Assembly: GCA_036376135.1 (NCBI GenBank)
Contig: DASVAW010000149.1
Coordinates: 1 to 47,932, forward strand
Direction: 5' to 3'
Length of the DNA: 47,932 nt
Source of the DNA: Candidatus Polarisedimenticolaceae bacterium
Lineage (GTDB): Bacteria > Acidobacteriota > Polarisedimenticolia > Polarisedimenticolales > DASRJG01
A program made the translations under genes and the position numbers. Under the pieces are notes generated by a model that was not told the origin of the DNA, made no database searches, and saw nothing but the letters and a program-made list of their open reading frames with translations. Positions 4,944 through 29,423 of the stretch are shown here, in pieces (the first letter of the stretch is position 1; every line of letters starts with the position of its first letter).

Positions 4944-5756
4944 TCAAGGGAGCTCCCCGAACAGCGGCTCACGCTCGTAGTATTCGAAGAATATCGACGG
5001 CGCGACGTCCACCGGGATCCCGAGCGCGCGGCGCGCCTCGGACCCGTCGGGGGCGAACCCGCGCGACAGCAGCCTTCGGACCGTTTGCGCGATCGTCCCC
5101 CGGAACCCGCAGACGTAGACGACCGCGCGGGAAGGAGCGAGCTCCCCACGGCCGAGCCCGGCCGCCCGCTCGACGACGTCGATCCGATCGTCGTCAAACA
5201 GCGTCTCGACGCGGCCGCGGAACCCCTGCCAGCCGGGGTCGCCGCCGCTGAGCACGGGGATGTAACGCCCGCCGAGGATCTCCTCGAAGGTCTCGTGGGC
5301 GGTGAACTCCTCCGGGTCGCGCGCGCCGTGAAGCAGGACGGTCCGTCCGTCGTCCCCGAGCTCGCGCACGATCGACAGGAACGGGGCGACGCCGGTCCCC
5401 GCCGCCACCAGGATCCGGGCCCGCGGGTCGTCGCGCCCCACCGTGCGCTCCACGGTCACGTCCCCTTCGAAACCCGGCCCGATCCCGACGCGGGCCCCCT
5501 CCGGCAGGGCGAACAACGTCTCGACGAACGCGTCGTCGCGACGCGTCTGGCGTCGCACGAGAAACTCCAGGGTGCGTTCGGAGGGGGGGGAAGCCACCGA
5601 GAGCGGGCGGGAGCAACGCGCGCCGTCGGGGTCCACGAGGGAGAGCACCGTGTGCTGGCCGGCCTCGAACGCGACCGGCGCGTCGGGGAGCACCCGGAAC
5701 AGCGCGAGCCCGCCGCCGGCGCTCCGGCGCCCGAGAAGGGCGGCGTTGAGGCTCAC
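4944..5756 (-). CDS. Ferredoxin-NAD(P)H reductase-type flavoprotein
   Basis: 270-residue FAD/NAD(P)-binding reductase of the ferredoxin-NADP reductase family. The FAD-binding motif RPLSVAS is at residues 50-56. The nucleotide-binding VAAGTGVAPFLSI is at 117-129, and the C-terminal VYVCGFRGTI is the family's Cys-Gly motif. It ends FEYYEREP, close to the C-terminus typical of bacterial Fpr enzymes. No iron-sulfur domain is fused. Start GTG overlaps the crotonase stop in a GTGA, so the two are coupled; the M14 peptidase starts 49 bp downstream. It probably passes electrons between NAD(P)H and a ferredoxin or flavodoxin; the partner is not in the window. Confidence 0.85.
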   Translation of the reverse strand: MSLNAALLGRRSAGGGLALFRVLPDAPVAFEAGQHTVLSLVDPDGARCSRPLSVASPPSERTLEFLVRRQTRRDDAFVETLFALPEGARVGIGPGFEGDVTVERTVGRDDPRARILVAAGTGVAPFLSIVRELGDDGRTVLLHGARDPEEFTAHETFEEILGGRYIPVLSGGDPGWQGFRGRVETLFDDDRIDVVERAAGLGRGELAPSRAVVYVCGFRGTIAQTVRRLLSRGFAPDGSEARRALGIPVDVAPSIFFEYYEREPLFGELP

Positions 5757-6529
5757 CGTTTCCGGCCCGACAACCCCGCGACGATCTCCTCGACGCGCGC
5801 CCGCGTTCCCGGCGAGAACCACGCGTCGAGCCACTCCGGCAGTCGCGCGGCCTCCTGGGCGCGGATCTCCGCGACGGCCGACTCCCGCAGGTAGCGCTTG
5901 GTCGTCGCGAGCGACGCGGCGTCCTTCCCGAGGAACTCCTGGATCCGCTCGAGACACGCGTCGTCGAAGCGCTCCGCGTCCACGATCTCGTGCGCGAGCC
6001 CGGCCGCCACCGCCGCGTCGTCCTTGAAGTTCCGCCCGAGGAGCGCGACTTCCGTCAGGCTCGACGGGGAGATCGCGGCCCGCAGCAGACGCGCGACGCC
6101 GAAGGGGAGCGGCACGCCGACCTTCACCTCGTTGAGCCCGAGCCAGACCCCGCGGCGGGCGAGCCGCCAGTCTGCCGTGAGGGCCAGCACGAGCCCGCCG
6201 GCCACCGCGTGGCCGTGCAACGCCGCCACGACCGGCTTGGGGAAGGCGAACATCTCGACCACGCACGCGCCGAAGTCCGCCATGAAGGCCGCCATCGCGT
6301 CCCGGTCGAGCGGGAGGAGGTCCTGCAGGTCGAGCCCCGGGCAGAAGAGCTTCCCCTCCCCGCGAAGGACGACGGCGCCGGCCCCCGGATCCCGCGCGAG
6401 CTCCCGGAAGGCGGCGCGCAGGCCGGCGACGAGATCCGGGTCGATGGCGTTGGCGTGCTCCCCCGCGAGGGTGACGACCCCGAACCCGTTCTCGACGTGG
6501 GCGCGAACCGGAACGCTCGAAGACGGCAA
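5753..6529 (-). CDS. Enoyl-CoA hydratase/isomerase (crotonase) family protein
   Basis: 258-residue crotonase-fold protein. The oxyanion-hole segments are visible: FCPGLDLQDL (about 62-71) and HGHAVAGGLVLALTADWRLA (about 104-123). A Glu is at the usual position of the first catalytic acid in LGLNEVKVGVP, while the second acid is not obvious, so hydratase versus isomerase activity is unclear. Start is TTG at 6529: GGAGGTGAG lies just upstream, a strong ribosome-binding site at good spacing. It overlaps the reductase gene downstream and diverges from the alcohol-dehydrogenase-like gene. Confidence 0.85.
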   Translation of the reverse strand: MPSSSVPVRAHVENGFGVVTLAGEHANAIDPDLVAGLRAAFRELARDPGAGAVVLRGEGKLFCPGLDLQDLLPLDRDAMAAFMADFGACVVEMFAFPKPVVAALHGHAVAGGLVLALTADWRLARRGVWLGLNEVKVGVPLPFGVARLLRAAISPSSLTEVALLGRNFKDDAAVAAGLAHEIVDAERFDDACLERIQEFLGKDAASLATTKRYLRESAVAEIRAQEAARLPEWLDAWFSPGTRARVEEIVAGLSGRKR

Positions 6530-18397: not shown

Positions 18398-18411
18398 GGA
18401 CTGTCCCTATT
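18393..18411. repeat. Perfect 19-bp palindrome at the meeting point of two convergent genes
   Basis: AATAGGGAC, central T, GTCCCTATT: 9-bp perfect arms, strikingly AT-richer than its surroundings. The plus-strand gene ends with the TAG inside the left arm (18395-18397) and glgC on the minus strand ends with TAA overlapping the last base of the right arm (18413-18411). The near-symmetric sequence could form a hairpin in either transcript. It may be a bidirectional terminator or one copy of a dispersed REP-like palindromic element; the window holds only this copy. Confidence 0.6.
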
Positions 18412-19691
18412 TAGATGGTCGTTTCGTCGGGGATCACGGCGTTCTTGCGTACGATGACGATCCCCTCGCGGATGGCCCAGCCCGGTCCGTCCGCCTCCTG
18501 CAGCCCCTGCTTGTTGGTGATGCGGACGTTGCGGCCGATGTGCGCGTTCTTGTCGACGATCGCGTTCTGGATCAGCGTCCCCTCGCCGATCCCCGGCGGC
18601 GGGGAGCCGGGAGGCGCCGGCGGGAAGTAGGGGTCGAGCCCCATGATCAGCGAGCGCCGCACGGTCGCGTGGGTGAGGATCGAGCGGACGCCGACGATCG
18701 AGTCCTCGATCGTCGAGCCCACGACCTGCGTCCCCTCGCACAGGATCCCGTTGTTGAACCGCGTGGCGGTGATCACCGAGCCCGGGAGGTACCGCGGGTG
18801 GGTGTAGAACAGCCAGTTCGGGTCGCGGAACGAGAACGGCGGGTCGGCCTTCACCAGGTCCATGTGCGCGTCGTAGAACGACCGGATCGTCCCGATGTCG
18901 CGCCAGTACCCGCCGAAGGCGTAGGCCTGGACACGTTTCTCCTTCACCAGCGACGGGATCACGTGGTGGCCGAAGTCGCGCAGCTCCGGCCGGAGCGCCG
19001 ACGCGAGCACGTCCTTGTTGAAGATGTAGATCCCCATCGACGCGAGGAAGGGTTTGCCCTCGGGGAGGCCGTACCGCGCAAGCAGCTGCGGGTCCGCCTC
19101 CATCCCCGCCCGCCCGGCGGCGTCCTTCGGCTTCTCGCGGAATTCCACGATCCGCCCCGTCGGGTCGGTGCGCACGGCGCCGAGCTCGCAGATCTCGGAC
19201 TCCGTGCACGGCAGGACGCCGATCGTCAGGTCGGCGTTCGACTCCAGGTGCTCGCGGAGCATGAGCCGGTAATCCATCCGGTACATGTGATCGCCGGAGA
19301 GGATCATCACGAAGTCGCCGCGCGACTCGACGATGAAGTCGAGGTTCTGGCGGACGGCGTCCGCGGTCCCCTGATACCACGTGTCGTCGCCGGGGGTCTG
19401 CTGGGCGGCGAGGATCTGGACGAACCCCCTCGAGAAGTGATCGAAGGCGTACGTGCGCACGATGTGCCGGTGGAGCGAGACGGAGTTGAACTGCGTGAGC
19501 AGGAACATCCGCTCCATGCCGGAGTGGATGCAGTTGCCGATCGGGATGTCGATCAGCCGGTACTTGCCCGCGATCGGGACCGCGGGCTTGGAGCGCTGCG
19601 ACGTGAGCGGGTCGAGCCGCTGCCCGCGCCCTCCGCCCAGGATGACCGTGATGACGTCGTGTTCCCGGCCCGTCGTCGGGACGCCGACCAT
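18411..19691 (-). CDS. glgC: Glucose-1-phosphate adenylyltransferase (ADP-glucose pyrophosphorylase)
   Basis: 426-residue nucleotidyltransferase that makes ADP-glucose from ATP and glucose-1-phosphate. N-terminal catalytic motifs: ILGGGRGQRLDPLTSQRSKP (ATP and pyrophosphate loop), GTADAVRQNL, SGDHMYRMDY with the metal-binding Asp, the sugar-binding FREKPKD and SMGIYIF. The C-terminal left-handed beta-helix starts near residue 290 (IEDSIVG, IQNAIVDKNAHIG). The sequence resembles the cyanobacterial/plant-like branch. It lies downstream of trehalose genes, so its ADP-glucose may feed the TreT-like glycosyltransferase as well as, or instead of, glycogen. Start ATG with AGGGG upstream. Confidence 0.95.
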   Translation of the reverse strand: MVGVPTTGREHDVITVILGGGRGQRLDPLTSQRSKPAVPIAGKYRLIDIPIGNCIHSGMERMFLLTQFNSVSLHRHIVRTYAFDHFSRGFVQILAAQQTPGDDTWYQGTADAVRQNLDFIVESRGDFVMILSGDHMYRMDYRLMLREHLESNADLTIGVLPCTESEICELGAVRTDPTGRIVEFREKPKDAAGRAGMEADPQLLARYGLPEGKPFLASMGIYIFNKDVLASALRPELRDFGHHVIPSLVKEKRVQAYAFGGYWRDIGTIRSFYDAHMDLVKADPPFSFRDPNWLFYTHPRYLPGSVITATRFNNGILCEGTQVVGSTIEDSIVGVRSILTHATVRRSLIMGLDPYFPPAPPGSPPPGIGEGTLIQNAIVDKNAHIGRNVRITNKQGLQEADGPGWAIREGIVIVRKNAVIPDETTI

Positions 19692-19695
19692 GGGT

Positions 19696-19717
19696 ACCCC
19701 TCCCGTAAGGGGGGAGT
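19696..19717 (-). promoter_or_regulatory. Hairpin over the glgC ribosome-binding region
   Basis: On the minus strand ACTCCCCCC, loop TTAC, GGGAGGGGT pair with one mismatch and one G-U. The right arm contains the GGGAGGGG that serves as the glgC ribosome-binding site. A possible -10 box TAGACT (19720-19715) overlaps the outer edge. If glgC is read through from the upstream gene, this could hide its ribosome-binding site. Confidence 0.4.
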
Positions 19718-19731
19718 CTACAACGTCAGGC

Positions 19732-20343
19732 TCACCGCTTGACGATGCCGGAAGTCAATCGTTTGGCGCAGGCGGCGCAGAACCGCTCGTCCTTGAAGTC
19801 GATGTCCGCGAGCGCCCCCGTCGGCGCCATCACGCACCGCGGGTCCCGGCACTCCGGAAGCCCCTTGAGGCTTCCGATCGCCTGGAGGAGGACCTTGACC
19901 ACCCGCGCGCGCTGTTTTCCGGGGTCGGCCTTCCGGCGGTAGAACGCCTCGCGCAGCCGCCGGACCGAGAAGACCGCGACGCGGTTCCGGGCGTCCATCT
20001 CCCCGAAAACCCCCTCGGTGTCGGGCTTGAAGAGGTCCACGTCGGTCACGAAGACGATCGCGTCGGGGTTGGCGGCGGGGACCATCACCTTCCCGGGCTC
20101 GGCGGGGGAGCCCCCCACGAGCTTCGCGACCCCTAGCCGGGAGAGCCCGGCCCTCAGCTCCGCCAGGAACGGCCCCGCGCGGTGCTGCCCCCGACCCACT
20201 TCCTCGGAGGTCCGCGGTACCGGGGCGGGCTGGCGCATCTCGACCGGGCGGCCGAGGACCTTCGAGACCTTGGCGACGGCCGCCTCGAGCTCGACGGGAT
20301 CGAGTTTTCCGACGGGAACCACGGTCACGCGAAGTTCGGACAT
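19732..20343 (-). CDS. Archaemetzincin-like protein lacking the catalytic zinc site
   Basis: 203-residue protein that follows the archaemetzincin (M54) pattern along its length: a TDVDLFKPDTEGVFGEMD block and VAVFSVRRL, then Gly161-x3-Cys165-x4-Cys170-x-Met172-x16-Cys189-x2-Cys192, matching the family's C-terminal cysteine zinc knot and Met-turn. The catalytic HExxHxxGxxH is gone: aligned on Gly161 the positions read Gln154, Ala155, Ser158 and Glu164 instead of His, Glu, His and His. It is therefore predicted to be a non-peptidase descendant, perhaps a binding or structural protein. It sits 9 bp after the TreT-like gene and 40 bp before glgC in the same orientation. Confidence 0.75.
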   Translation of the reverse strand: MSELRVTVVPVGKLDPVELEAAVAKVSKVLGRPVEMRQPAPVPRTSEEVGRGQHRAGPFLAELRAGLSRLGVAKLVGGSPAEPGKVMVPAANPDAIVFVTDVDLFKPDTEGVFGEMDARNRVAVFSVRRLREAFYRRKADPGKQRARVVKVLLQAIGSLKGLPECRDPRCVMAPTGALADIDFKDERFCAACAKRLTSGIVKR

Positions 20344-20352
20344 GGCGCCATC

Positions 20353-21564
20353 TTACGGCGCCCGCCCGGTGATCGAAAGGAAGAGGGTGAGCCAGTCCCG
20401 GAGGTGCCGGGTGAGCAGGAAGCGGTAGCGGACGAGCTCCCGCCCCTCCGTTCCCATCTCCCGCGCGGCCTGCGGGCGGTTCAGCAGATACCGGATCCGG
20501 AACGCCAACCCCTCCTCGGAGTGGACCAGGAATCCGGTCCGATGGTCGTGGACCTGCAGCGTGATCCCTCCCACGGCCCCCGCGACCACCGGTCTCCCCT
20601 TCCAGAGCGCCTCGGTGACGGTGAGCCCGAACCCCTCCTTCGTCGAGTTCTGGATCACGACGGTCGCCGCGCGCTGGAGCGCGTTGATCTCGAGATCGCT
20701 GTCGGGGGGGATGCTCAGGACGTGGACGTCGGGGTCGCCGCCGGCCTCCTCGCGGACCTCGCGCAGGACCTCCGCCCCTTCGGGGTCGTCGTCCGCGGTG
20801 CCGCCGACGAGGACGAGACGGCAGTCCTGCGTCCGGCGGACCTGACGCCAGGCGCGGATGACCCCCACCGGGTTCTTGAAGCGGTCGAAGCGGGAGACCT
20901 GGACGAGCAACGGCCGCGACCGGTCGAGGCCGAGGCCGGCGAGGCGGCGGTCGATCTCCCCTTCGGAGATCTCCCGGTTCTTGTCCGCGAGGGGGTCGAT
21001 CGACGGGGGGATCAGGTATTGCGGGTGCGGCAGGTTCTGCGCGAACGGCGCGAGCGAGAACACCGACGCGTCGTAGGGCTCGACGAACCCCCGCAGGAAT
21101 CGCCACACGGGGCGATAGGGCTTCGAGGCGTCGATGTGGCATCGCCAGATCCACGGGCAGCGTTTCTCGGCGAACCGGATCAGCGGAGCGGGCTGCGGGT
21201 CGTGGATGACGACGACGTCGGCGTCGAGCTCGAGTCGGGCGGCGTTCTTCCGGTTCGTCTCGAGGTAGGCCTCGCGCTGCGCGGGGGTGAGCTCGAGTCG
21301 ATCCCCCTGCAGCGCGTTGTGCATGCGCTTGGTCGTCGCGAAGTACTCGGGGGTTCCCTCGAGGACCTCCCAGCGGGCGTCCAGCCCGAGCTCGTTGAAG
21401 AGCGGGACATGCCGCGCGAGCAGCTCCGCGACCCCGCCGCCCACGCGCGTCGAGTTGACCACCACGAGTCGGAGCCCCTCGAGTCGCGCCGCCAGCCGCC
21501 GGAGCAGCGCGATCCGGTCGCGGCCGACGACCTCGGCGTACTGATCGAGCCGGGCGGCCTTCAT
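20353..21564 (-). CDS. Trehalose synthase-like GT4 glycosyltransferase (TreT type)
   Basis: 403-residue GT-B glycosyltransferase close to TreT, which joins NDP-glucose and glucose into trehalose. Hallmarks: VVNSTRVGGGVAELLARHVP near the N-terminus, WRCHIDASKPYRPVW, the donor-binding VQVSRFDRFKNPVGVIRAW, and the GT4 signature NSTKEGFGLTVTEALWKGRPVV with two Glu seven residues apart. Length matches TreT. The ATG overlaps the DUF5752 stop (ATGA). GlgC in the same cluster could supply ADP-glucose. A glycosyltransferase making another glucoside is possible but less likely. Confidence 0.88.
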   Translation of the reverse strand: MKAARLDQYAEVVGRDRIALLRRLAARLEGLRLVVVNSTRVGGGVAELLARHVPLFNELGLDARWEVLEGTPEYFATTKRMHNALQGDRLELTPAQREAYLETNRKNAARLELDADVVVIHDPQPAPLIRFAEKRCPWIWRCHIDASKPYRPVWRFLRGFVEPYDASVFSLAPFAQNLPHPQYLIPPSIDPLADKNREISEGEIDRRLAGLGLDRSRPLLVQVSRFDRFKNPVGVIRAWRQVRRTQDCRLVLVGGTADDDPEGAEVLREVREEAGGDPDVHVLSIPPDSDLEINALQRAATVVIQNSTKEGFGLTVTEALWKGRPVVAGAVGGITLQVHDHRTGFLVHSEEGLAFRIRYLLNRPQAAREMGTEGRELVRYRFLLTRHLRDWLTLFLSITGRAP

Positions 21565-22235
21565 GCGTCGCCCTCCTCGGGATGTCCCTCCAGGATGCGC
21601 AGGATCCGGTGGCGCAGCTCCTCGAGGCTGAAGAAGTAGAAGTCGATCCGGCGAAGTCGTGAGACCTCCGCCGACGCGCCGAACTCCGCCTCGAGCCAGC
21701 GGGAGTAGTCGTCCGCTCCGCCGCGCAGCTTCGCCTCGTGGAAGTGGAAGTAGAGGCTGCTCAGGGGCGCATGGGCGATCCCCTCGTGCAGCTCCGCGAC
21801 GCTCCACGCCTCGCGATCGGTCGGAAGCTCGAGGTAGTGCCCGGAGGCGAAGTGGAACTCGAATCCGCGCCGGGCCCACGGAACCCCGGCGAGCCCGTCG
21901 AGGTGCTCCTCCACGACCTCGAGGACGACCGCCCTGGCCTGCTCGAGGTCGGTCCGCTTGAAGGGCTCGATCGCGCTGAGCTTCTCGGCGAGCGCGCGAT
22001 CGCCGAGCGCCTCGGCGACCCAGGTCGCGAAGTCGTTCGGGTAATCCCACGACCCGTAGCGATGCGCGAGGAACGACCGGTACAGGTGGTGGTGCACGAC
22101 CTCGCCGGGAACCCGACGGAGCTGGTCGGCGAGCTCCTGGAGATTCGCCGCGCGAAGCCCCGTGACGACGACGAGCCCCTCGTAGTCCACGAACCGGAAC
22201 GGCGCGCGCGCGCGCACCGACGCCAGGGCGGTCAA
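21561..22235 (-). CDS. DUF5752 family protein
   Basis: 224-residue protein of the DUF5752 family, which often sits beside trehalose synthase genes. It is alpha-helical and rich in aromatic and His residues: FVDYEGL, VVHHHLYRSFLAHRYGSWDYPNDFATW, FEFHFASGHYLELP and LSSLYFHFHEAKLR. No known catalytic motif; the conserved His could bind a metal or ligand. The start is TTG at 22235, preceded by GGAAGGAGGT at good spacing, and overlaps the otsB stop as TTGA. Coupling on both sides suggests it is made in step with OtsB and the TreT-like enzyme. Confidence 0.8.
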   Translation of the reverse strand: MTALASVRARAPFRFVDYEGLVVVTGLRAANLQELADQLRRVPGEVVHHHLYRSFLAHRYGSWDYPNDFATWVAEALGDRALAEKLSAIEPFKRTDLEQARAVVLEVVEEHLDGLAGVPWARRGFEFHFASGHYLELPTDREAWSVAELHEGIAHAPLSSLYFHFHEAKLRGGADDYSRWLEAEFGASAEVSRLRRIDFYFFSLEELRHRILRILEGHPEEGDA

Positions 22236-23029
22236 CGGACACCTCCTTCCGAGAATCGCGCGAGCGCGTGGAGAAAGCGGTGCATCGCGTCGGGCGAGGC
22301 CAGCCGCCAGCGGGCCGCGGTCGCGATCCCCGGCGGGCCGACCTGGACCGTCGTCGCACCGGGACCGAGCGCCCGGAAGAGGTCCTCGTCGGTGCGATCG
22401 TCCCCCGCGGCGACGACCGAGGGGTCCTCCGGCGCGGCCTCCCGCACCGGGGGCCACGTCGCGGCGACGCGTCCCTTGTGCGCGCCCGCCGGGCGCAGCT
22501 CCGTCACCCGCCGCCCGCCGATCCGCTCGAGCCCCGACAAATCGTCCCGCGCGAGCGTGCGACGCAGCTGAAGCCGCCACGCGCTCAGCCTCGAGTCGTC
22601 CAGCTCGCGATCGTGGACGGCGAAGCCGGCGGGCTTCCGCTCGACGAAGACCCCGTCCCAACCCTCGGCGAGACCCTCGACGCGCCGCGCGAGCCTTTCC
22701 AGGCGCTCCGACATCGCGGGTTCGAGCGCGAGCCGCACGCCGGGGGCCTCCAGGCCGTGGCTCCCGAAGATGGCGATCGGACGCCCCCCGAACAGCTCGA
22801 GCACCTCCGCGGCCGGTCGACCCGAGACGAGCGCCGCCCGCCATCCGAGCGCCCCCAGGCGATCGAGCGACGCGAGGATCCCGCCGGGAATGCGGACCTG
22901 CTCGGGACGGCGAGCGATCGGGGCGAGGGTGCCGTCGACGTCGAGGAGCAGCACGCGGGCGGCCGCCCGGCGACGGGCGGCGGCGGCCACGTGGGTCGCG
23001 AGCGCCTCGGGTCGCACGGCGGATCTCAC
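22232..23029 (-). CDS. otsB: Trehalose-6-phosphate phosphatase
   Basis: 265-residue HAD-superfamily phosphatase that removes the phosphate from trehalose-6-phosphate. Motif I is LLLDVDGTLAPI (nucleophile and acid Asp, about 27-38), motif II LVSGRPAAEV, the trehalose phosphatase cap follows, then the HKGRVA lysine and motif IV GDDRTDEDLF. GTG start at 23029 overlaps the otsA stop (GTGA). Together with OtsA it completes the two-step phosphate pathway from UDP- or ADP-glucose and glucose-6-phosphate. Confidence 0.93.
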   Translation of the reverse strand: MRSAVRPEALATHVAAAARRRAAARVLLLDVDGTLAPIARRPEQVRIPGGILASLDRLGALGWRAALVSGRPAAEVLELFGGRPIAIFGSHGLEAPGVRLALEPAMSERLERLARRVEGLAEGWDGVFVERKPAGFAVHDRELDDSRLSAWRLQLRRTLARDDLSGLERIGGRRVTELRPAGAHKGRVAATWPPVREAAPEDPSVVAAGDDRTDEDLFRALGPGATTVQVGPPGIATAARWRLASPDAMHRFLHALARFSEGGVR

Positions 23030-24474
23030 CCCGCGCGCTCCGCCCGGACCGCCCCCCCGGGGGGGAGCGCGAGGCAACGTTCCGCCCATGCCGTCGCGGG
23101 GTTGGCCTCCACGAAGGGGCGCATCCGGTCCATCCGCTCGCGCCGCTCGCGCTCGGGCATCGAGAGCGCGCGGACGAGGGTCGTCGCGAAGGCCTCGACG
23201 TCGTTCGGGTTCACGGCGAGCGCCCCCGGAAGATGCTCGGACACCCCCGCGAACTCGCTGAGGACGAGCACGCCGTCCCCGTCCCGCCGCGACGCCACGA
23301 ATTCGGGGGCGACGAGGTTCATCCCGTCGCGCAGGGGGGTCACGAGCACGACCGACGCCGCGAGGTAATGCGCGACGAGCTCGGGACGGTCGAGCGCCCG
23401 GGCGCGGTAGTGGATCGGAACCCACCCCTCCCCTCCCCACTCGCCGTTGATCCGGCCGACCTGGCGGTCGATCTCCCGCTTCATCTGGCGGTATTCCTCG
23501 ACCTGGTGGCGGCCGGGCACGACGACCTGGAGGAAGGCGAAGGTCCCGGCTTTGGACGGGTTGGTCCGGAGCATCCGCTCGACGGCGAGGAACCGCTCGA
23601 GGATCCCCTTGGTGTAGTCGAGCCGCTCGCCGCCGAAGAGGATCGGACGCGGGCCGTAGGCGCGGCGGATCTGCACGGAGCGGGCCTTCACCTCCGGATC
23701 CTCCGCGAGCCGCACGAAGTCCGCCGCGTCGATCCCGATCGGTTCCGCCGAAGCGCGCGTCGAGCCCTCCTCGTGCTCGAGGGTGATCGGCCCGCGGATC
23801 TCGTCGTCCGGGGCGACGACCCCGAGCGAGCGGGCGGACTCGACGAAGTTCCGTTTGTACCGCCCGACCTGGAACACGATCGTGTTCGCGCCGAGCAGTC
23901 CCCGGAGAACCTCCTCGCGCCAAGGCAGGACGCGGAAGATCTCCGCCGGCGGGAAGGGGATGTGCAGGAAGAAATCGACGCGCCCGCCAAAGCCGAGCTC
24001 GCGCAGCAGGCGCGGCACCAGCATGAGATGGAAGTCGTGGACCCAGATGCGCTCGCCCGGGCGCGCGTAACGAAGCGTCGCCTCGGCGAAGCGCCGGTTG
24101 ACCTCGCGATAGGCGACCCAGTCCTCCGGCTCGAGGACGGTTTTCCCGGGGAAGTCGTGGAAGAGAGGCCACAACGCGCGGTTGGAGGCGCCGTGGTAGT
24201 ACCGCGCGACGTCCCGCTCGCTCAGCGGCACTCCGCACAACACGACGCCCGACGCGAGACGCGTCGAGCGAGGCCTCGCCCAGCTCTGCGCCACCGCGGC
24301 TGCGGAGGGGAGCATCGCGCCGTCCCAGCCCACCCACTTCCCGCCGCGCTCCGCGAGCACCGGCTCGATCGCGTTGACCAGACCGCCGACGTTGCGTTTG
24401 GGCGCTCCGCGCCCCGGCTCGCGACCGATGTCGTAGGGCAGCCGATTGCTGACGACGACCAGTCCCTCGGCCAC
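23026..24474 (-). CDS. otsA: Trehalose-6-phosphate synthase
   Basis: 482-residue GT20 glycosyltransferase joining NDP-glucose and glucose-6-phosphate. Motifs: VVVSNRLPY and GGLVNAIEPVL at the N-terminus, WVHDFHLMLVPRLLRE, FFLHIPFPPAEIFRVLPWRE, the phosphate- and donor-binding GGERLDYTKGILERFLAVE, and PLRDGMNLVAPEFVA. Length matches OtsA. GTG start at 24474 is preceded by AAGGAGGAATGC, a strong ribosome-binding site; longer readings of the frame add only low-complexity residues. First gene of the trehalose operon and divergent from the giant fusion gene. A possible -10 box TAGGGT lies at 24511-24506. Confidence 0.95.
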   Translation of the reverse strand: MAEGLVVVSNRLPYDIGREPGRGAPKRNVGGLVNAIEPVLAERGGKWVGWDGAMLPSAAAVAQSWARPRSTRLASGVVLCGVPLSERDVARYYHGASNRALWPLFHDFPGKTVLEPEDWVAYREVNRRFAEATLRYARPGERIWVHDFHLMLVPRLLRELGFGGRVDFFLHIPFPPAEIFRVLPWREEVLRGLLGANTIVFQVGRYKRNFVESARSLGVVAPDDEIRGPITLEHEEGSTRASAEPIGIDAADFVRLAEDPEVKARSVQIRRAYGPRPILFGGERLDYTKGILERFLAVERMLRTNPSKAGTFAFLQVVVPGRHQVEEYRQMKREIDRQVGRINGEWGGEGWVPIHYRARALDRPELVAHYLAASVVLVTPLRDGMNLVAPEFVASRRDGDGVLVLSEFAGVSEHLPGALAVNPNDVEAFATTLVRALSMPERERRERMDRMRPFVEANPATAWAERCLALPPGGAVRAERAG

Positions 24475-24767
24475 GCATTCCTCCTTCTTCGGCCGGACTC
24501 CATCGACCCTAGTGCCGTGTGCCGCCCCCCGCAACGACACCAACTCCGTGGGCGTGGTGGAGTTTCGGCGCCGGCGGGCCCGCCGCAGGGCGCTCACACT
24601 GCATCGCCTTTCCCTCGAGACACTCGGCGTCCGTGGGCGCGGCACGAAGCGGCCTGCGAGGGCGGTCCGCGGAGGGGACGTCGGGGTGGACGCGGCCCCA
24701 TCCGCCCCTGCTTCAGGTCAAGTCCCGCCACGGACGGATCGCCCCGGGAAGGCTAGAATCCCGGCCC
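24475..24767. other. Divergent intergenic region, 293 bp
   Basis: The longest gene-free stretch in the window, between otsA (minus) and the giant fusion gene (plus). It holds one candidate -10 box for each direction (24506-24511 minus, 24754-24759 plus) and a 6-bp inverted repeat (AACTCC at 24542-24547 and GGAGTT at 24559-24564, loop 11). Both coding frames through it are Arg-rich and look like noise. I see no RNA gene or riboswitch. Confidence 0.6.
24754..24759 (+). promoter_or_regulatory. -10 box TAGAAT 8 nt before the giant fusion gene
   Basis: TAGAAT ends 8 bases before the GTG at 24768. No Shine-Dalgarno sequence lies between, so the message is probably leaderless. No clear -35 box is seen. 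Confidence 0.45.
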
Positions 24768-27700
24768 GTGAGCCCTCCCGAAACGCTGCTTGCCGCCCTC
24801 GGCGCCCTCACGGACGACCACGAGCTCGACGATTTCCTCGAGCGGCTCCCCCTCGACGAGCTCGACGAGCTCGCCCGCCACGCGCTCGCCCGGCTGCGGC
24901 TCGAGGGGGACGCGCCCTCGCACGACGCGCGGCGCGAGGCGTGGGAGCTGCTCGACGTCCTGCGCCGCTCGACGGTGCTCCGGCGCATCGCGCAAGCCGG
25001 CGCGGTCGAGGCGTGGGCGGCGCGCATGCTCGAGCTCGTCGAGGCGTCCCACTACACGACGGGGCTCCTTTTCCGGCGGCGCGCCGCCCGGTACGGCTCG
25101 AAGACCCTCTTCGAGATCCCGGCGGCGGGGGGGTGGCGGTCGCTGAGCTGGCGCCACACCGCGGCACGGGTGGAGGCGCTGGCCCGGGGGCTGCTCGCCA
25201 CGCTCGGCTCCGAGGACCCGCCTCGCGTCGCGATCCTCTCCGAGAACCGACCGGAGATGGCGATCGCGGATCTCGCCTGTTTCTCCGCCGGGATCGTCAC
25301 CGTGATCATCCCCGGCAACTCGACCGAGGCCGACGTCGCCTACATGCTCCGGCACGCCGGCGCGGCGGCGATTCTCGTCTCCGACCGCGAGCAGCTGCGG
25401 AAGGTCACCCGGCAGCGGGAGGCGCTCCCCGGGCTCAAGCACGTGTTCGTGATGGACGCGGTCGCCGCCGGCAAGGACGCGGTCGCCCTCGACGAGGTGT
25501 CCTCGCGCGCCGGGCAGGTCCCGCTCTCCGCCCTCGAGGACCGGGCGCACGCCTTGCGGATCGGCGACCTCGCGACCGTGATGTACACCTCGGGGACCAC
25601 CGGCAAGCCCAAGGGAATCCGGTTCACCCATCGCAACATCGTCTACAAGCGGTTCTGCCGCGCGCTCGCCCTCCCCGAGATCGGCGAGGACGACGTCTTC
25701 CTGTGCTACCTCCCCCTCTTCCACACCTTCGGGCGCTACTTCGAGATGATGGGGTGCGTGTTCTGGGGGGCGACCTACTGCTTCCTCGAGAACCCCTCGA
25801 TCGAGGCGATGGTCCAGGGGATGCGCCGCTTCCGCCCGACGGTGTTCATCAGCGTCCCGAAGAAGTGGATCCAGCTCTACGAGGCGATCGCCCTCGAGGC
25901 GCCTCCGGACGCCAGCTCCGACGACGCCGTCCTCGAGGCGACCCGCCGCCTCACCGGCGGACGGCTGCGCTGGGGGCTGTCGGCGGCCGGGCATCTCGAC
26001 AGCTCGATCTTCCGGTTCTTCCAGCAGCAGGGGATCGAGCTGATGAGCGGCTTCGGCATGACCGAGGCGACCGGCGGCGTGACCATGACCCCGCCCGGGA
26101 GGTACCGGGACGACTCGCTCGGCCTTCCGCTCCCCGGGATCACCTGCCGCCTCGCCGAGGACGGCGAGTTGTGGATCCGCGGCCCGTACGTCACGGAGGG
26201 TTACCTCGACCTCCCCGAGGGGGAGGAGGGGATCGGCGAGGACGGCTGGCTGAGGACCGGCGACCTCATGGAGAAGGACCACGACGGGCACATCCGCCTC
26301 GTGGACCGCAAGAAGGAGATCTACAAGAACGTCAAGGGCGAGACGATCGCGCCGCAGCGGATCGAGGGGTTGTTCCGCGAGTTCGAGTCGGTCGGCCGCG
26401 TCTTCCTCGTCGGGGACCACCGCGAATACAACACCGCGCTGATCTACCCCAACCCGAAGGCGACCCACGTCGACCTGGCCGCGATGAAGGACGACGAGGA
26501 GCGCAAGGGGCACTTCCGGTCGATCGTCGCGTCGGTGAACGCCTTCCTCTCCCCGTTCGAGCGGATCGTGGACTTCGCGCTGATCGATCGCGACTTCGAT
26601 CCGCATCGCGGCGAGCTGACCTCGAAGGGGAGCTTCCGGCGCAAGGCGATCGAGGCGAACTTCGCCCCCGCGGTGGCGCTGCTCTACCGCCGCGCGAACC
26701 TGCGCGTGGGCGGCGCCGACGTGGTCTTCCCGAACTGGCTCTTCCAGGCCCTCGGCCTCACCGCGCAGGATCTCCAGATCGAGCCCGACCGCCTCGTCCT
26801 CCCCGGGGGGAAGTCCCTTCACGTCCGCCGACTCCAGGACGGGATCACCCTCGTCGGCTCGATCGTCTACGCCCACCCGGCCCACGAAGCGCTGCAGATC
26901 GGCGTGTTGCTCACGACCCCGCGCCTGTGGCTGGGGAACGACGAGCTCGTCGACTTCGCCGATCTCGAGATCCGCCTGCGGGAGCGCCCCGGCCGCGCGG
27001 GAGACCGCATCGAGTGGAAGGGGCGCGCCTCGCAGTTCGCGCACGCCTCGGCGGTCTACGACGCGCTCCAGGCGCCGCACCAGCGCGCCGAGCTCGACCT
27101 CATGGACCTCCACCGCGCGGCGCTCCTGCTCGCCGGTCCCGACGACAAGCCGGCGATCGCCGCGGTGCACGTCCTCGAGCGCGCGATGGTCCAGGAGGAG
27201 GGGCCGCTGGCCGAACCCGCGCGCGTCCTGCTCGGCCGCGTCGCGGCGGCTCCGTCGCTGGCCGTGAGGCGGCGGGCGTTCCTCACGCTCCTCCCGGCCG
27301 AACGTCCCTCGCGCGTGCGCGAGTCGCTGCGCCGGTTCCTGTCGACTCCGGGCGTGATCCTCGACGCGGAGACCCGCCAGTCGCTGTGCGAGCGCAACCT
27401 CGACGACGTCCGGCTCGAGGCCTTCCTCGCCGAGGCCGAGCACCTCGCCTCGACGGAGACCGCGCCGCGCGGGGTCGAGCGCCGGCTCGCGTCGATCCTG
27501 CGCCTGCTCGCGGAGTACGGCGCCGCGCACCCGACGCGTTACCGCAAGCTGCGCGCCGCCTTCGTGCGCCTCGCGGCCTTCGCCGCGCTCCCCGACGCGC
27601 GCGAGGAGGCGGCGCGGATGCGCAGCGAGATGCGCAAGGGGTTCCGGGCCTGGATGGGACCGTCGTCGCGCGTGGGCGTCGATCCCGAGACCGGCCAGGA

Positions 27701-29423
27701 ATACCGCTGGGACGACGTCGTGACCTTCGAGGAGGACGTCCCGGAGGACGACCGCCGCAGGCTCCTGTCCGCGATCCGGACGACCCCGGTCATCCGCGAG
27801 GCGGTGTTCCTCTTCTCGGGAGGCGCGATGCCGCGCCTGTCCGACATCCCTCCCGGCGGCGTGTGGGTCCGGACCCTCGGCTCCAAACACGGCAAGAACG
27901 TCTACCGCGTCACCGTGCAGACCCGTTTCCAGGGCTCGTACGACCTCGCGTTGAACGTGAACCACGAGCTCCCCGCCCAGCGCATCCAGGACGAGATCCG
28001 CTGGCTGATCTTGTGCGGCGACACCGGCGACCGCCCGCCCCTCGTGGAGGACTTCGGCGGCTACTGGCCCGAGTTCGACCTGTGGAGCGAGGAGTACATC
28101 CCCGGCGACACCCTCGACCGCGTCCTCCGGCGCCTCTCGCGCCACGCCAACGACGAGGACCGCTTCAAGGGGCTGTGGCCGTTCTTCGCCTGGAGCGCGC
28201 TCGCCGCCCACCTCGATTTCTGGAACCGCACCGGGCGCTCGGTCGAGGTCGCCGACCGCGCGGGGGCGAACGTCATCGTTCCGACCCACGACTACCAGAC
28301 GGGCGCGCGCCTGGTCTCGATCTCCTCGGTGCGCCCGCACAAGGGGCTCGCCGAGACCTTCCGGTTCTTCCGCGAGGAGTTCTCCGATCCGATCGAGCGC
28401 CAGTACCCGACCCTCCAGGGAGAGGTTCGCTGGAACGTCGTCCTCTCGGCGCTGCTCGAGGCGGTCGGCGAGCAGGAGGGCCTCCGGATGCTGCGCGAGC
28501 TGCAGCACCGCGACGCCGGCCACCTCTCCGAAGGGCTCGCCGCGAGCCTCGCGACGTACATCCCCGCGGTGGAGGCGCACGGCTTCCTCCCCATGCGGCT
28601 CTACTTCGCGATCCGCCGCTACCGCCGCTGGGCGAAGCTGTCGATCGATCCGACCCCGTCGGCCTGCGCGCGCAACGTGCAGGAGCTTTGGGACTCCTAC
28701 GGCCTCTCGAAGCTGATTCCGCAGTACCCCGGCGCGCGACTGCGCTTCTTCCGCCAGACCGTCTTCGAGTCCGCCCCCGAGCCCCTCGCGATGGGGCTCG
28801 AGGAGATCCACGAGAAGCTGCGGCGGCGCGAGCTTTCGTCCGACGCCCTCCCCGACGCGATCGCCGACCTGCGCGCGCGCATCGAGGTGGGCCCCGAGGA
28901 GGACTACTTCCTGGCGCGGCTGTCGTTCCCCTACCTTCGCCCGGAGGACGACGCGGGGTTCGTGCAGACCGACTTCGGCGGCCGCCACCAGAGCGAGATC
29001 GTCGTCACCCTCGAGGACGGCGACGGCAACCCGTTCCAGGTCCGCCACGCCCTCACCCCCAAGGAGGTCGGGCGCCTGCACCGCCTCTTCCTGAGCGCCA
29101 AGCTCGACGTCCGTTTCCGCCCCGAGCACCAGTACCTGGTCGCGATCAACGAGCGGCAGCAGATCATCGGAGGGATCTTCTACGACGTGGAGCCGCAGGC
29201 GCGCTCCGCCCACCTCGAGAAGATCGTCGTCGGCGAGCGTTACCGGAAGAAGGGGGTCGCCGACGGCCTGATGAACGAGTTCTTCAACCGCCTGCGCGCG
29301 CAGGGGTTGAAGACCGTCACGACCGGCTTCTTCCGGCCGGAGTACTTCTACGCCTACGGGTTCGCGATCGAGAAGCGTTACGCGGGGCTCGTGAAGAACC
29401 TCACGGACGGGGCGAAGGGCTAG
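24768..29423 (+). CDS. Giant fusion: acyl-CoA-synthetase-like + helical + kinase-like + GNAT domains
   Basis: 1551-residue cytoplasmic protein. A helical N-terminus (1-95) leads into an ANL adenylation domain of the long-chain acyl-CoA synthetase type (about 96-645): YTSGTTGKPKG at 273-283, GFGMTEATGG at 428-437, hinge LVDRKKEIYKNVKG. The usual catalytic Lys near the end (in LTPTLK-type motifs) aligns with Ser622 in LTSKGSFRR. Next is a helical, HEAT-like region (about 780-970), then a segment resembling kinase/APH folds (about 1020-1200: HGKNVYRVTVQTR, hinge EEYIPGDTLDRVL) without clear catalytic residues. The C-terminus (about 1430-1551) is a GNAT acetyltransferase with RKKGVADGLM. GTG start 24768; no frameshift. 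Possible role: activating and transferring an acyl or acetyl group; unproven. Confidence 0.8.
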   Translation: MSPPETLLAALGALTDDHELDDFLERLPLDELDELARHALARLRLEGDAPSHDARREAWELLDVLRRSTVLRRIAQAGAVEAWAARMLELVEASHYTTGLLFRRRAARYGSKTLFEIPAAGGWRSLSWRHTAARVEALARGLLATLGSEDPPRVAILSENRPEMAIADLACFSAGIVTVIIPGNSTEADVAYMLRHAGAAAILVSDREQLRKVTRQREALPGLKHVFVMDAVAAGKDAVALDEVSSRAGQVPLSALEDRAHALRIGDLATVMYTSGTTGKPKGIRFTHRNIVYKRFCRALALPEIGEDDVFLCYLPLFHTFGRYFEMMGCVFWGATYCFLENPSIEAMVQGMRRFRPTVFISVPKKWIQLYEAIALEAPPDASSDDAVLEATRRLTGGRLRWGLSAAGHLDSSIFRFFQQQGIELMSGFGMTEATGGVTMTPPGRYRDDSLGLPLPGITCRLAEDGELWIRGPYVTEGYLDLPEGEEGIGEDGWLRTGDLMEKDHDGHIRLVDRKKEIYKNVKGETIAPQRIEGLFREFESVGRVFLVGDHREYNTALIYPNPKATHVDLAAMKDDEERKGHFRSIVASVNAFLSPFERIVDFALIDRDFDPHRGELTSKGSFRRKAIEANFAPAVALLYRRANLRVGGADVVFPNWLFQALGLTAQDLQIEPDRLVLPGGKSLHVRRLQDGITLVGSIVYAHPAHEALQIGVLLTTPRLWLGNDELVDFADLEIRLRERPGRAGDRIEWKGRASQFAHASAVYDALQAPHQRAELDLMDLHRAALLLAGPDDKPAIAAVHVLERAMVQEEGPLAEPARVLLGRVAAAPSLAVRRRAFLTLLPAERPSRVRESLRRFLSTPGVILDAETRQSLCERNLDDVRLEAFLAEAEHLASTETAPRGVERRLASILRLLAEYGAAHPTRYRKLRAAFVRLAAFAALPDAREEAARMRSEMRKGFRAWMGPSSRVGVDPETGQEYRWDDVVTFEEDVPEDDRRRLLSAIRTTPVIREAVFLFSGGAMPRLSDIPPGGVWVRTLGSKHGKNVYRVTVQTRFQGSYDLALNVNHELPAQRIQDEIRWLILCGDTGDRPPLVEDFGGYWPEFDLWSEEYIPGDTLDRVLRRLSRHANDEDRFKGLWPFFAWSALAAHLDFWNRTGRSVEVADRAGANVIVPTHDYQTGARLVSISSVRPHKGLAETFRFFREEFSDPIERQYPTLQGEVRWNVVLSALLEAVGEQEGLRMLRELQHRDAGHLSEGLAASLATYIPAVEAHGFLPMRLYFAIRRYRRWAKLSIDPTPSACARNVQELWDSYGLSKLIPQYPGARLRFFRQTVFESAPEPLAMGLEEIHEKLRRRELSSDALPDAIADLRARIEVGPEEDYFLARLSFPYLRPEDDAGFVQTDFGGRHQSEIVVTLEDGDGNPFQVRHALTPKEVGRLHRLFLSAKLDVRFRPEHQYLVAINERQQIIGGIFYDVEPQARSAHLEKIVVGERYRKKGVADGLMNEFFNRLRAQGLKTVTTGFFRPEYFYAYGFAIEKRYAGLVKNLTDGAKG

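Follow-up and report, generated by a model that had tools for sequence, protein, structure and literature searches.

The non-proteolytic archaemetzincin CarG of Myxococcus xanthus and its partner CarD form a tight complex (PMC8156234); carD is translationally coupled to carG, and the two always coexist (PMC8156234; PMC9304148). The CarG motif, HQx2Hx2Ex2HC, keeps the three His residues and has Gln in place of the Glu (PMC8156234). Single Cys changes harm the archaemetzincin MkAmzA and abolish CarG function, indicating that the Cys4 site is structural, and in crystals of AfAmzA the cleft is occupied by acidic small molecules, malonate and citrate (PMC3427221). The idea of a dead archaemetzincin has a precedent in CarG (NCBIfam NF033824) and is therefore not itself novel; in the literature searched, CarG was the only studied non-proteolytic member. 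The ADAM22-type pseudo-metzincins of animals likewise carry a metzincin domain, but these are extracellular proteins of another metzincin family (Z of ~10 against the model of an orthologue of the protein analysed here). ADAM22 itself is catalytically inactive and acts as a binding protein.

The protein analysed here is encoded in a stretch of 47,932 nucleotides, which we call the window. Its gene and the segments discussed below are as follows.

19732..20343, minus strand: pseudo-archaemetzincin (pseudo-AMZ) gene, ATG at 20343, TGA stop, 203 aa
19852..19884, minus strand: degenerate catalytic helix, residues 154-164, QAIGSLKGLPE replacing HExxHxxGxxH (from the sequence and alignments)
19768..19851, minus strand: Cys4 zinc-knot segment, residues 165-192, with C165, C170, C189 and C192 invariant in 10/10 orthologues
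19909..19956, minus strand: clade-specific conserved basic loop, residues 130-145 (LREAFYRRKADPGKQR), including R136, R137, K138 and K143 (from the conservation comparison)

The original prediction described an intact reading frame of 203 residues with a normal start, which is what we find, on the minus strand. It also read three blocks as an archaemetzincin layout (TDVDLF...VFGE, VAVFSVRRL and C165-x4-C170-x-M172-x16-C189-x2-C192); all are present, and the layout is real. The window protein scores 49.8 bits against the Pfam M54 profile PF07998 (cut-off 24.4), and its convincing PDB sequence matches are solved archaemetzincins only (3lmc, E 2.7e-12; 2x7m, E 3e-11; 3zvs; 4axq). By these matches it is undoubtedly a true archaemetzincin (M54) homologue. 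PF07998 also matches all ten orthologues at E<=1, two of which (G006 and G008) were overlooked by a whole-genome Pfam scan.

An AlphaFold2 model of the window protein, built from the ten orthologues, had a mean pLDDT of 85.8 and a pTM of 0.85. Structure comparison, which the original prediction had proposed as a check, placed this predicted structure with the archaemetzincins (Z 21.1, 20.2, 19.9 and 19.5; rmsd 2.1-2.8 over 160-177 residues), followed by snake venom metalloproteinases at Z 13.8; among the structures listed, none of a non-metzincin fold reached a comparable Z. A second orthologue, modelled separately, agreed, with archaemetzincins at Z 17.9-19.9 and the next match at 12.8, so that both predicted structures have the archaemetzincin fold. 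Over the whole chain the protein thus shares its predicted fold with the archaemetzincins (MEROPS M54; AfAmzA 3zvs/4axq, MkAmzA 2x7m, MlAmzA 3lmc), together with the Cys4 zinc knot and the R-x-Q, D-x-D, S-x-x-R and D-x-K landmarks. Residues common to the inactive proteins and the HExxH relatives (R51, Q53, D103, S126, R129, R147, K150, D182 and K184) are probably structural. Unlike the archaemetzincins, the window protein has an additional loop near residues 77-94 and a strongly basic charge.

In the catalytic site the inactive proteins depart from the family: they lack the three zinc-binding His residues and the catalytic Glu. Aligned on Gly161, the window protein has Q154, A155, S158, G161 and E164 at the HExxHxxGxxH positions, exactly the replacements originally predicted. 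None of the ten orthologues has His at a zinc-ligand position or Glu at the catalytic one. The first His position is Arg in eight and Gln or Met in two; the catalytic Glu is replaced by Ala, Thr, Met, Val or Cys; the second His position is Arg or Lys in seven and Gln or Ser in three; and the third is Asp or Glu in eight. The Met of the Met-turn is kept in 3/10 and lost in 7/10. The four Cys residues, on the other hand, are invariant in all ten, and the pattern Cys-x4-Cys-x-Met-x16/17-Cys-x2-Cys is complete in the window copy, with its Met present in three of the orthologues. As the cysteine mutants of CarG and MkAmzA suggest, the Cys4 zinc site would have been kept because it holds the C-terminal subdomain together.

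The loss extends across the GTDB order of the window genome. Each of the 10 genomes examined there (nine genera, three families) contains an orthologue with an intact frame, which rules out a lone degenerate copy, one of the outcomes that could have undone the original prediction. A profile of the ten proteins matched all ten order genomes at E<1e-85, and its best match outside them, across 396 genomes of the phylum, was at 5e-23. A GTDB genome scan returned five loci, all within the group, including those of Acidobacteria bacterium Mor1 and Ca. Polarisedimenticola svalbardensis. Four of the ten order genomes additionally carry a second archaemetzincin, one whose motif is complete. Among the M54 loci fetched elsewhere in the phylum (~90 distinct), every complete one has HExxHxxxxxH except L142; L055, which is frameshifted, and L030, which is cut by a contig end, were not counted as complete. 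We found no description of the order's inactive family in the literature searched, a search that left subscription papers mostly outside its coverage.

In a tree of 103 proteins, the inactive proteins form one clade with a support of 100/100 and a long stem of 1.71 changes per column; the same tree supports no particular position of the clade among its active relatives. The comparison with CarG was made outside the tree, by motif and NCBIfam score. From the tree and the residue survey together, we conclude that the zinc site was lost once, in the ancestor of the order. For the closest pair of genomes, dN/dS was 0.10 for pseudo-AMZ and 0.13 for glgC; other pairs gave 0.22-0.57, but these are more divergent and their estimates less reliable. 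Pseudo-AMZ evolves at about twice the rate of GlgC, and more than 20 residues are invariant across the ten orthologues. The gene and its predicted fold have been maintained across the order under purifying selection.

Three other sets of loci were seen during the survey. L142 (G255:C1, ~61326-61538) is M54-like and lacks both HExxH and the Cys4 segment; a CxxC pair lies at its N-terminus, and it contains a hydrophobic stretch. It seems to represent a separate loss in another part of the phylum, unrelated to the order's inactive clade. At L055 (G010:C69, ~5318-5824), an M54-like N-terminal half fits the inactive-clade profile and is followed by a frameshift; the catalytic helix is missing and an accD-like gene adjoins. 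The locus is a sister gene that has decayed, or else results from an assembly error. A long-branched M54 group with the motif HExGHMFxxxHC (L121, L129-L133, L135, L137-L139) has frames of ~300-350 aa and belongs to one genus of the phylum.

The inactive clade also has conserved residues of its own. E18, E35, R37, R64, G77, A133, R136, R137, K138, K143 and G199 are conserved within it and rare in ~86 relatives, and the average net charge is about +8.5, compared to about -2 (-1.9) in the HExxH relatives. The R136-K138 stretch forms a lower-confidence loop of the model that precedes the old catalytic helix. Taken together, the same loss across the order, the purifying selection, the intact predicted fold and these new conserved residues lend good support to the original reading of a repurposed pseudo-peptidase rather than decay. 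The window protein is very probably a conserved non-peptidase with the archaemetzincin fold.

The original prediction placed the gene between a trehalose synthase-like gene and glgC. The neighbours are as follows.

18411..19691, minus strand: glgC, cyanobacterial/plant-type ADP-glucose pyrophosphorylase, next gene downstream, gap 40 nt
20353..21564, minus strand: TreT-like GT4 glycosyltransferase, directly upstream, a neighbour in the window genome only
24759..29423, plus strand: AMP-binding ligase with a C-terminal GNAT domain, divergent from the operon, a neighbour in 8/10 genomes including that of the window

The placement is correct for the window genome, and a survey of homologues lacking HExxH, suggested at the outset, showed that glgC is kept in all ten genomes and the treT-like gene is not. 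In every genome glgC lies directly downstream of pseudo-AMZ on the same strand, with gaps of -4 to 58 nt, a range that depends on the start codons chosen. At an E cut-off of 1e-60 there is one glgC match per genome in 10/10, and glycogen synthase (glgA) is over its cut-off in nine. The trehalose cluster of OtsA, OtsB, DUF5752 and TreT-like genes (window 20353-24519) is inserted upstream in the window genome only (1/10), and a trehalose link was dropped. Of the predicted role in sugar metabolism, then, the part that stands is the glgC adjacency, and a link of the inactive family to glycogen synthesis is plausible. The region in general is moderately syntenic (a CNT nucleoside transporter is a neighbour in 8/10 genomes), and the pseudo-AMZ/glgC pair is the part that is never broken. 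Because the AMP-binding ligase is also found beside the pair in eight genomes, its adjacency is not specific to the pair. The ligase protein is ~1550 residues long, with its AMP-binding part at the N-terminus and a long middle part without a Pfam match.

GlgC (NF002772), the conserved downstream gene product, appears to be an ordinary intact enzyme. Plant-type GlgCs with 58-68% identity also occur in six genomes of the class that fall outside the order, and there no archaemetzincin lies within <=1.5 kb on either side; thus, the protein is not required by the enzyme as such. The only GlgC residue that cosegregates with the partner is H56, which is not telling. Mirror-tree distances correlated with r 0.83 between pseudo-AMZ and GlgC and with r 0.95 between pseudo-AMZ and the flanking ligase (same 21 pairs), and distance correlation gives no specific support for singling out GlgC. 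A protein regulator or partner of this kind for GlgC was not found in the literature searched. The ribosome site of glgC, GGGAGGGG, can pair with CTCCCCCC just upstream (window 19680-19740); a regulatory hairpin over this site in the window was rejected, its folding energy being no better than that of shuffled sequences (z -0.41). In the GlgCs of G003 (L075), G007 (L079) and G009 (L077), the Lys of the C-terminal DKN is replaced by Leu; we take this Lys to be one activator-site lysine of cyanobacterial GlgC.

By analogy, the window protein resembles CarG in being a non-peptidase archaemetzincin with a Cys4 site whose gene adjoins one always-coexisting gene. It is nevertheless unlikely to be a CarG-like transcription cofactor, one that would bind a CarD/CdnL-type RNA polymerase partner and control transcription, for example that of its own glgC operon. 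CarG, the one studied non-proteolytic archaemetzincin found, works in this way (PMC8156234), and the inactive clade has a basic character that would suit such a role, but CarG keeps three His residues and two bound zinc ions, while the inactive clade lacks all three. A match to NF033824 (non-proteolytic archaemetzincin-like protein; E 3.8e-20) speaks for the cofactor, yet its 72.4 bits are far below the cut-off of 250 and lower than the 102.9 bits obtained with NF033823 (archaemetzincin family Zn-dependent metalloprotease), itself below a cut-off of 145. Given this score, the lost motif and the different neighbour, the window protein lies, on sequence grounds, outside the CarG/NF033824 family. 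The CarG gene adjoins carD, whereas pseudo-AMZ adjoins glgC in 10/10 genomes, and no CarD-family gene was found within or next to the operon. CarD-family matches above the cut-off occur at other places in the genomes; they usually number two, a long frame of Mfd size and a short frame of CdnL size, and no additional match reaches the cut-off. CdnL of M. xanthus does not bind CarG (PMC4374960).

It is rather improbable that the protein binds an anionic metabolite (a sugar phosphate, nucleotide sugar or nucleotide) and serves as a sensor or carrier of intermediates close to GlgC, with no contact to the enzyme itself. Two of the zinc ligands have given way to basic residues in most orthologues, but in the window copy the first His position is Gln and the second Ser, not Arg; the conserved RRK loop is new, but it is a lower-confidence part of the model. 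Malonate and citrate in the AfAmzA cleft (PMC3427221) would fit such a binder. That pseudo-AMZ is a slowly decaying relic, kept next to glgC by chance, is largely refuted and has very little probability left: all of its catalytic residues are lost, the Met-turn is gone in 7/10 and it evolves faster than glgC, but the frame is intact in every genome across the nine genera and three families, dN/dS for the closest pair is ~0.1, and the Cys4 site and more than 20 residues are invariant in a confidently predicted fold. Equally remote is a metallohydrolase with a rebuilt zinc site. D101, D103, D180 and D182 are invariant and might serve, although the HExxH relatives are just as invariant at D103 and D182. 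An alternative His-based zinc site in the inactive clade is unlikely because the ten orthologues have no invariant His and the window protein has a single one (H54).

The best overall explanation, to which we assign a probability of about one half, is a pseudopeptidase that serves as a binding module, most likely as a partner or regulator of GlgC. The catalytic zinc site of an archaemetzincin was lost a single time, in the order's ancestor; purifying selection has since preserved the protein, presumably for non-catalytic binding of a protein or ligand, with the Cys4 zinc site still holding the C-terminal subdomain together. The former substrate cleft has turned basic, the first ligand position being mostly Arg, the second mostly Arg or Lys and the third mostly Asp or Glu, with the conserved FYRRK loop a new element. 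An acidic partner or anionic metabolite is probably what such a cleft binds; an acidic GlgC surface or a phosphorylated effector might fit there. GlgC is the most likely partner, which the protein may stabilise or regulate, because pseudo-AMZ directly precedes the only glgC found in each of the ten genomes. The genomic habit of CarG and CarD, in which CarG forms a unit with a neighbour-encoded protein, is repeated in this pair and therefore points to GlgC. Direct binding to GlgC is a reading to which we give slightly less than even odds. More tentative is the proposal of a dedicated regulatory subunit of a bacterial ADP-glucose pyrophosphorylase, in which a metzincin fold with a basic anion- or partner-binding cleft would form an order-wide two-gene unit with the enzyme.

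Pseudoproteases illustrate how an enzyme fold can become a binding protein. The family described here is a second and more radical archaemetzincin case after CarG; it is order-wide and connected, through glgC, with the committed step of glycogen synthesis, and it makes the recruitment of a protease fold into central carbon metabolism open to experimental test. If the protein does bind GlgC, then an enzyme known chiefly for small-molecule control would have a protein regulator as well.
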